Assembly (NCBI GenBank): GCA_944327625.1
Contig: CALVHL010000011.1
Coordinates: 1 to 64,000 of the forward strand
From: an uncultured Clostridia bacterium
GTDB lineage: Bacteria > Bacillota > Clostridia > Christensenellales > Borkfalkiaceae
DNA length: 64,000 bases
Direction: 5' to 3'
The position numbers were made by a program, and so were the translations under genes. The number at the start of each line of letters is the position of its first letter. Position 1 is the stretch's first letter. The notes under the pieces are model-generated. The model did no database searches. It saw only the letters and a list, made by a program, of their open reading frames with translations, and was not told the DNA's origin. Positions 4,687 to 6,271 of this stretch are shown here, piece by piece.

Positions 4687-5184
4687 ATGATTATTTTAGG
4701 CATCGATCCCGGTTTCGGCACCATGGGCTACGGGGTAATAGAAAAGAAGAATAACGGCGATTGCGTACCCGTCGACTACGGCGTAGTCACCACCCCGAGG
4801 GACGAGACCTTTCCCGTGCGCCTCGCCATGCTCGAAGAAGGGCTCAACCGCATCTATGCGAAGTACAAGCCCGAGGAGATAGCCGTCGAGGAGCTGTTCT
4901 TCTCCAAAAACGTCACTACGGGCATTCAGGTTGCCCATGCGAGGGGGGTAATACTCGTCTCCGCCGTCAAGTACTGCGGCAGGCTGTTTGAATATACTCC
5001 CAACGAGATAAAGCAGGCGCTGACGGGTTACGGTAAGGCGGACAAAGTGCAGATGATGCACGTCGTGACATCGCTTCTCCGCCTCGACAAAATTCCCCGT
5101 CCCGACGACGCCGCAGACGCGCTCGCCGTCGCGCTCTGCCACGCGCACACCTCGCGCTTCGGCAGGCTCTACGGCATAAAGTAA
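4687..5184 (+). CDS. ruvC: Holliday junction resolvase RuvC
   Basis: A 165-residue RNase H-fold endonuclease that cuts Holliday junctions together with RuvAB. The start ATG at 4687 gives the normal N-terminus MIILGIDPG; the frame extends upstream only through a TTG without support. The catalytic acids are visible as Asp7, Glu68, Asp141 and Asp144 (in PDDAADAL). There is no good Shine-Dalgarno site and the start lies in the T-rich tail of a hairpin. The usual ruvC-ruvA-ruvB order is kept, but a 487-base gap filled with repeats separates it from ruvA. Confidence 0.94.
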   Translation: MIILGIDPGFGTMGYGVIEKKNNGDCVPVDYGVVTTPRDETFPVRLAMLEEGLNRIYAKYKPEEIAVEELFFSKNVTTGIQVAHARGVILVSAVKYCGRLFEYTPNEIKQALTGYGKADKVQMMHVVTSLLRLDKIPRPDDAADALAVALCHAHTSRFGRLYGIK

Positions 5185-5233
5185 GGTTTTTCGACCGCCG
5201 CTTTAAAATTGCGCGGTTTGAAAAAATGCCCCA

Positions 5234-5663
5234 AAAACTCGTCAAATTTGTTTTCGTCACCAGAAAACAAATTTACGAAAGTAAAACAACTCAACAGCGC
5301 AAGCAGGGTTTCCCTGCGCCAGCGCACTCAATTTGCGCATACCTGCGCCTAAGCGGAGGGAATTGCCGCGACTTCTCATAATTGAGAGCCCTTAAAGGTC
5401 GCGGCAAAGGAGGCAGAGCCTCCCAAAACTCGTCAAATTTGTTTTCGTCACCAGAAAACAAATTTACGAAAGTAAAACAACTCAACGGCGCAAGCAGGGT
5501 TTCCCTGCGCCAGCGCACTCAATTTGCGCATACCTGCGCCTAAGCGGAGGGAATTGCCGCGACTTCTCATAATTGAGAGCCCTTAAAGGTCGCGGCAAAG
5601 GAGGCAGAGCCTCCCAAAACTCGTCAAATTTGTTTTCGTCACCAGAAAACAAATTTACGAAAG
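5234..5663. repeat. 191-bp tandem repeat, 2.25 copies, each unit with four hairpins
   Basis: Two full units (5234-5424, 5425-5615) and the first 48 bases of a third (5616-5663) have a period of exactly 191 bases. The two full copies differ only at 5296 (A) versus 5487 (G). Each unit contains a 12-bp inverted repeat AAATTTGTTTTC/GAAAACAAATTT with loop GTCACCA (first copy 5244-5274), GCAGGG-TTT-CCCTGC, a 10-bp pair TTGCCGCGAC/GTCGCGGCAA (5363-5372 and 5398-5407), and GGAGGC-AGA-GCCTCC (5409-5423). The third copy stops where the ruvA ribosome-binding site begins. Reading frames across it (for example to an N-terminal extension of RuvA) are not credible genes. Bases 5185-5233 hold nothing recognisable. 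Confidence 0.93.
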
Positions 5664-5671
5664 AGGATACT

Positions 5672-6271
5672 ATGATAGGTTATTTAAAAGGTAAAGTTTT
5701 AAAAATATATGCCGACAGCGCGCTGATAGTCGTCGGCGGTGTCGGCTATGAGGTCAACTGTTCGGGCTCGGCATTTTCCAAGATGACCGAGGGCGGTGAA
5801 GTTGAACTCTACACCTATATGCAGGTCAGCGAGGCGAACGGCATTTCGCTCTACGGCTTTTCCTCCGAGCAGGAGAAGTCGGCGTTTTTGAAGCTCATCT
5901 CGGTTTCGGGCGTAGGTCCTAAGATGGGCATAGCCGTACTCACCTATATGAACGTCAACGACTTCGCGGCGGCGGTTGCGACGGGCGACGTCAAGCGCCT
6001 TTCGTCCGTAAAGGGTTTGGGCAAAAAGACCGCCGAACGAATAATCTTAGAGCTCCGCGAAAAGGTCTCGCCCGTCGAAGCGTATTCGGGTGCGGCTTCG
6101 GGCGCATTGCCCGCGGCGGCTGCGGCAACTTCGGGCGACGAGGACGCGATAGTCGCGCTCATGAGCCTCGGCTATAACCGTGCGGAGGCGGAAAAGGCAA
6201 TAATAAGGGCAAAATCGGCGGGGGCAACTTCGCTCGAAAACATAATTTTTGCGGCAATCAAGGGAATGTAA
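5672..6271 (+). CDS. ruvA: Holliday junction branch migration protein RuvA
   Basis: A 199-residue protein that tetramerises on Holliday junctions and recruits the RuvB motor. It has the N-terminal OB fold (MIGYLKGKVLKIY), helix-hairpin-helix motifs around LISVSGVGPKMGIAVL and LSSVKGLGKKTAERIILELR, an Ala-rich linker, and a C-terminal RuvB-binding domain around EDAIVALMSLGYN. The chosen ATG at 5672 follows AAGAGGA at 5661-5666; an upstream in-frame start would run into the repeat array. ruvB follows after three bases. No promoter was found in front, so expression depends on the repeat region or on read-through from ruvC. Confidence 0.95.
   Translation: MIGYLKGKVLKIYADSALIVVGGVGYEVNCSGSAFSKMTEGGEVELYTYMQVSEANGISLYGFSSEQEKSAFLKLISVSGVGPKMGIAVLTYMNVNDFAAAVATGDVKRLSSVKGLGKKTAERIILELREKVSPVEAYSGAASGALPAAAAATSGDEDAIVALMSLGYNRAEAEKAIIRAKSAGATSLENIIFAAIKGM

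Follow-up and report, generated by a model that had tools for sequence, protein, structure and literature searches.

The gap between ruvC and ruvA in the window (the whole stretch of 64,000 nucleotides that was analysed) is occupied by a tandem array of a structured repeat. Two copies of 191 nt, at 5231–5421 and 5422–5612, are 99% identical and are followed by a partial third copy of 51 nt (5613–5663). The first-pass annotation had described a tandem repeat with a single difference between the copies, inverted repeats of 12 and 10 bp and contact with the ruvA ribosome-binding site, and this description holds, coordinates included. Inside its bounds the only copy-to-copy substitution is A5296 versus G5487; extension of the repeat leftwards to 5231 brings one further difference, at 5233. 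The 12-bp inverted repeat recurs in further copies and the 10-bp one in a second copy, with shorter hairpins in between. The array begins 46 nt downstream of the ruvC stop codon; its last hairpin extends to 5660, a few bases short of the GAGGA ribosome-binding site of ruvA.

The natural boundary of the unit is shifted with respect to the one annotated initially, as the 12-bp hairpin closes the element. Since the element ends with this hairpin, the array is composed of a solo end-hairpin and two complete elements:

4687..5184, + strand: ruvC, upstream neighbour, named in the first-pass annotation and used to find relatives
5185..5238, + strand: putative remnant of an older copy, from by-eye comparison with loci L014 and L059
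5239..5278, + strand: solo terminal hairpin; foot TCGT/ACGA, bulged C5243, 12-bp stem 5244–5255/5263–5274
5279..5469, + strand: complete element 1; AT-rich leader, P1–P3, P5, P6 and terminal hairpin (5430–5469)
5470..5660, + strand: complete element 2; same order of parts, terminal hairpin 5621–5660
5494..5508, + strand: P2 stem-loop of element 2, GCAGGG/CCCTGC
5526..5539, + strand: P3 stem-loop of element 2, GCGCA/TGCGC, with the conserved CAATTT just before it
5554..5598, + strand: P5 of element 2; 10-bp stem TTGCCGCGAC/GTCGCGGCAA at 5554–5563/5589–5598
5600..5614, + strand: P6 stem-loop of element 2, GGAGGC/GCCTCC
5664..5668, + strand: ruvA ribosome-binding site (AGGAT region, GAGGA), directly 3' of the last terminal hairpin
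5672..6271, + strand: ruvA, downstream neighbour, ATG at 5672

The cores of elements 1 and 2 are matched by the covariance model of the family at 5288–5426 (E 1.7e-38) and 5479–5617 (E 2.3e-39), respectively. By comparison with GGTGACCG..GAGAAAG[CA]GCCTCCCAAACTCGTC in L014 and L059, the stretch 5185..5238 appears to be a shortened tail left by an older copy that bore an extra module. The copy number of the array is given as assembled. Several family matches sit at contig ends (by BLASTN, on C4, C8, C17 (at both its ends) and C28 of the same genome), so the repeats break the assembly and collapse of the array is possible.

Architecture and covariation of the unit

The unit is formed by an AT-rich leader (approximately AAATAATTAACG), the nested stem-loop P1/P2, CAATTT, P3, CTCAGC together with GTGAATT, P5 (10 bp with a large loop), P6 and the terminal hairpin, in this order. 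The linkers CAATTT, CTCAGC and GTGAATT between the stems are conserved. The left end of the element is poorly defined because other repeats adjoin it; in genome G002 another dispersed repeat (CCTCCCCTCGAAGGGGAGG..GAGGGGTTATTC) is very often found on this side (L191, L194, L197 and L199–L207). Smaller hairpin modules (e.g. TCTGCCGTTTCCC..CTCGGCAG and GACGAGGGCGG..GAGAAAG[CA]GCC) are nested in the loops of P3, P6 and the terminal hairpin, both in G002 (L233, L238, L241, L243–L246) and in the genome of the window (L014, L022, L024). At L238, L242, L248, L249 and L251 of G002 the terminal hairpin is reduced to its right half (..CGCGCAAAAAATTTGTGAA), which is fused to unrelated repeat sequence.

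In a sequence-based MAFFT alignment of 47 copies double-sided changes are seen at 28 of the 31 pairs and 92.5% of the cells are paired, the weakest helix being the outer P1 with 71%. The covariation score of the five core helices in this alignment is 0.576 versus at most 0.142 with slid partners. An alignment of 111 distinct copies, which is fitted to the model and so leans towards the structure, gives 95.5% of paired cells and a score of 0.602 versus at most 0.117. All ten pairs of P5 show double-sided changes across copies, and the P2 stem GCAGGG/CCCTGC is wholly swapped for A-T rich stems in other copies.

This covariation is almost free of wobble pairs. The cells of P2, P3, P5 and P6 in the model-fitted alignment comprise 2844 Watson-Crick, 26 G-T and 8 A-C pairs. 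The G-T share of 0.9% is about eight-fold lower than the 6.6% of tRNAs (783 Watson-Crick and 57 G-T pairs in the tRNA stems of the fetched loci, taken as a control). In the alignment that was not fitted to the structure, G-T (18) and A-C (17) are nearly equal. Selection on RNA tolerates G-U, not A-C. The near absence of G-T pairs and their symmetry with A-C therefore point to a constraint acting on DNA strands.

It is improbable, then, that the repeats constitute a structured non-coding RNA family (a cis-regulator or a dispersed stable RNA) maintained by selection on the RNA fold. Such a family would agree with the conserved architecture and loops, with the covarying stems and with a fold of the unit that reaches z −6.3 as RNA relative to shuffled sequences (the other strand, folded as DNA, gives z −6.3 as well), but not with G-T pairs that are this rare and no commoner than A-C in the unfitted alignment. 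An ordinary RNA family, contemplated in the first-pass annotation, is thus disfavoured; the genomic placement, described below, speaks against it too.

The stem of the terminal hairpin aligns badly, so RNAalifold failed to recover most of this hairpin and it was analysed copy by copy instead. Among 144 distinct downstream tails the stem is detectable in 128. In 113 of these 128 terminal hairpins the 5' arm has one unpaired base directly after a 4-bp foot, whereas a bulge on the 3' arm was met once. The feet covary: TCAC/GTGA occurs 79 times, TCGT/ACGA 21 times and TAAC/GTTA 9 times. The TCAC-G bulged form extends to two sister genera (L258 in g29; L259, L261 and L265 in g27), while L260, L264 and one further hairpin of L265 lack the bulge. 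The conservation of a one-sided bulge argues against hairpins kept perfect solely by template switching. In E. coli REPs the unpaired bulge is required and one strand alone is recognised, and in IS608 the unpaired base is contacted (PMC8266576). By analogy with these systems, the one-sided irregularity is the kind of feature that strand-specific ssDNA enzymes use, and a similar recognition is predicted for the hairpin described here.

Dispersal and genomic placement

The genome of the window (1.83 Mb) contains 28 BLASTN matches to the array. By a RuvC search, the relatives are Candidatus Coproplasma and other gut Clostridia. In a set of 61 related genomes BLASTN gives matches in 31 of 37 members of the genus, whereas all 24 that represent other families within the order are without a match. 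The covariance model of the core has matches in 55 of 61 sampled genus genomes and none in six, which include high-quality ones. By this model the number of copies per genome ranges from 0 to at least 53 within the genus, with at least 53 in several genomes. An order-wide search of 297 genomes with the same model returned the home genus again, the two sister genera and one weak match in another family. Divergent full-length copies (at least 10) are present in g29, which belongs to the same family, and g27 has shorter copies without P5 and P6. The g27 loci L259–L261 and L263–L265 are of this short form, with P1–P3 and, in most, a terminal hairpin. Altogether, the repeat family amounts to hundreds of copies over dozens of species.

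The similarity of the copies is lineage-specific. Mean identity within genomes is 0.87 in G002, 0.77 in G014 and 0.65 in the genome of the window, compared with 0.58–0.69 between genomes, so that copies are more alike within genomes than between them, the margin being small for the last of the three. The end sequences of the element are species-specific; the one of G002 is present there in 32 identical copies.

A search of the window and 15 loci against 4227 Rfam families at a relaxed E-value gave nothing credible on the repeats, only chance matches besides ordinary tRNAs. Phage and plasmid searches yielded no match to the family, and an exact conserved 22-mer is absent from viral contigs. The repeat family is real, genus-wide and previously uncatalogued in the libraries and literature searched. 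The initial suggestion of a small mobile structured element, to be checked by dispersed copies and covarying stems, is supported in substance: BLASTN and the covariance model revealed many dispersed copies, and the stems covary strongly.

All 124 copies tested lie outside predicted coding sequence; for 61 copies genes could be called on both sides, and these lie between codirectional genes in 26:23 orientation, between convergent genes in 10 cases and between divergent genes in 2 (the genes were called by a simple in-house caller, and overlapping fetches may count some loci twice). The genes next to the copies are unrelated between loci, and scans of the array for promoters and terminators were empty. 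The random orientation to transcription, the unrelated neighbours, the empty promoter and terminator scans and the lack of an Rfam family all weigh against the RNA family considered above. A stack of terminators or attenuators controlling ruvAB, another early suggestion, is not borne out: the array has no terminator- or promoter-like site, the orientation to neighbouring genes is random and the neighbours are unrelated.

The ruvC-ruvA gap is at most 20 nt long in 36 of 80 relatives, and relatives with clean ruv gaps lack the repeat there. The content of this gap differs: the array in the window, two units unlike each other in L058 and nothing but an end-hairpin in L059. That the duplication is recent, as first proposed, fits the 99% identity of the copies and the different content of the same gap in these two related species. 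By inspection, the ruvA-ruvB gap contains members of the family in several species and in both orientations (L063, L068, L084, L092, L100, L095, L106); we read it as a site of recurrent insertion or retention. Together with the similarity of copies within genomes, these observations on the ruv gaps agree with a course in which the element inserts where a gap tolerates it, its end-hairpins then recombine and copies decay through deletion. Comparison of filled and empty sites in relatives gave no clean empty site, and partial sites look like decayed insertions; the sampled species are ~80–90% identical at the DNA level, which hampers such comparison.

The repeats might alternatively be host-function sites kept by selection, i.e. 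sites of binding or unwinding by a nucleoid, topoisomerase or repair protein. Their intergenic position, the avoidance of divergent promoters and the presence in most of the genus suit such a role, but the copy number varies widely, down to none in high-quality genomes, relatives keep clean ruv gaps without the repeat, and the end sequences are species-specific. This explanation is extremely unlikely.

Candidate enzymes and probable mode of spread

A mobiliser was sought among five families, Y1_Tnp, DDE_Tnp_1, Transposase_mut, rve and RVT_1; none was found, and no family tracks copy number. G002 (at least 53 copies) and G029 (near 53) have no match to any of the five. A Y1 transposase (PF01797) is encoded by 18 of 61 genomes, none of them among the high-copy G002, G006, G014, G016, G029 and G076. 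DDE_Tnp_1 exceeds the curated cut-off only in G025, G066 and G069, all three being genus members without copies, and Transposase_mut is found in 0 of 61 genomes. The genome of the window encodes one IS200-like tnpA (L138, G000:C1:212364-212720) and one rve match, with no match to DDE_Tnp_1 (PF01609), Transposase_mut (PF00872) or RVT_1. An ORF near this tnpA looks like a tyrosine recombinase. Pairs of outward-facing end-hairpins 3.6 and 4.2 kb apart in G002 were considered as autonomous elements and rejected, as they enclose ordinary genes. The responsible enzyme may be of a known type outside the five families, such as other transposases, relaxases or recombinases. That high-copy genomes lack the familiar mobilisers suggests an enzyme that is diverged or as yet undescribed.

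It is very improbable that the element is a classical MITE with an inverted terminal hairpin as its left end, mobilised via terminal inverted repeats by a DDE transposase. Some copies (L015, L016, L193) do carry an inverted terminal hairpin on the left, but it is missing in many inspected copies, no target duplication is visible by eye at these same three loci, DDE_Tnp_1 is confined, above the cut-off, to the three copy-free genomes, and Transposase_mut is missing from all 61.

Somewhat less improbable, though still doubtful, is a neutral origin in which template switching perfects the hairpins and recombination or segmental duplication spreads them with no dedicated enzyme. The strand-symmetric pairing, the loop-nested modules and half-hairpins fused to foreign sequence, which look like products of template switching, and the failure to find a mobiliser among the five families agree with it. 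However, a process that perfects palindromes should erase the bulge, and yet 113 of the 114 hairpins with a single bulge carry it on the same arm, and it occurs in sister genera as well; the linkers between the stems are conserved; and species of the genus differ in copy number, some having none and others at least 53.

The array is probably one locus of a non-autonomous, dispersed mobile DNA element of ~190 nt, which is recognised as folded ssDNA and became tandem by later recombination. The hairpins of this element would form in single-stranded DNA, e.g. during replication, and the bulge would permit strand-specific recognition by an enzyme supplied in trans, which would copy or move the element into gaps between genes. 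The tandem at ruvC-ruvA may have arisen later by unequal recombination between the terminal hairpins flanking one unit. The element itself would be a genomic parasite or passenger, and if it influences ruvAB, it would do so incidentally, by adding ~430 structured nucleotides to the transcript. A protein-binding array, the remaining early suggestion, survives only in the sense of hairpin recognition by a putative enzyme and falls otherwise.

It is conceivable, if rather unlikely, that this is an ssDNA mobile element of an unrecognised type: a ~190-nt chain of hairpins with a bulged terminal hairpin, which hosts smaller loop-inserting hairpin modules and is copied or mobilised through an enzyme outside the five transposase and reverse-transcriptase families tested.

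The family is a large natural experiment on which parts of folded DNA are recognised: the stems are freely replaceable, the linkers and one bulged base are not. The repeats also help to explain the breakpoints in these assemblies of uncultured gut genomes and the interruption of the ruv operon in some species only.

Relation to known repeat systems

With REP/BIME/REPIN sequences and their TnpA-REP (RAYT) the family shares dispersed, intergenic, non-autonomous palindromic repeats with a conserved irregularity of the stem. Known REPs are 20–40 nt long and have an unpaired GTAG or CGTC tag (PMC3733652), whereas the present units have ~190 nt, five to six stems and no GTAG/GTGG tag, and several high-copy genomes have no Y1 transposase. 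Just 5' of the foot, where a REP would have a GTAG/GTGG (or CGTC) tetranucleotide, the copies mostly have AC or AA. The string CGTC appears in the own clade only, inside stem and bulge (TCGT-C). An associated Y1 (RAYT) transposase, which characterises REPtrons, is lacking in the six high-copy genomes named above, and the match in the genome of the window looks IS200-like.

The ends of IS200/IS605 elements likewise have bulged hairpins near them, recognised as ssDNA in the known system (for the unpaired base of IS608, see PMC8266576). In contrast to these, the element has no transposase gene inside and its hairpin is at the very end; the conserved bulge is at the right end, with no equivalent defined at the left. 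Long contigs of G002 carry both orientations on the same contig, i.e. without the obvious replication-strand bias expected for IS608-like insertion.

Integron attC sites are single-stranded hairpins recognised by structure, with extrahelical bases and little sequence conservation (PMC2727003). Unlike them, the repeats are dispersed through the genome and no gene cassettes or attC core motif were seen; the units are directly tandem or solitary, with no cassette ORFs seen.

MITEs (e.g. Correia, QMITE) are shorter than 500 bp, intergenic, non-autonomous and of high copy number (PMC10969869), as is the present family, which differs in that inverted repeats at both ends are not a consistent feature of its copies, a target duplication was not visible by eye and a related IS was not found (own genome: PF01609, PF00872).

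The pneumococcal BOX (boxA-boxB-boxC) is a mosaic, modular, tandem-amplifying stem-loop repeat, which spread in the past of the species and the mobiliser of which is uncertain (PMC3049150). The likeness, with the architecture compared by description, lies in such mosaic modular stem-loops that amplify in tandem in a Firmicute (PMC3049150). In the present family, unlike BOX, the whole unit is amplified in tandem, stems are replaced wholesale across the genus and the bulged end-hairpin is conserved. By analogy, the family would work most like ssDNA hairpin elements of the REP/IS200 type and mosaic repeats such as BOX, while it departs from REPs and MITEs in defining features that were tested.
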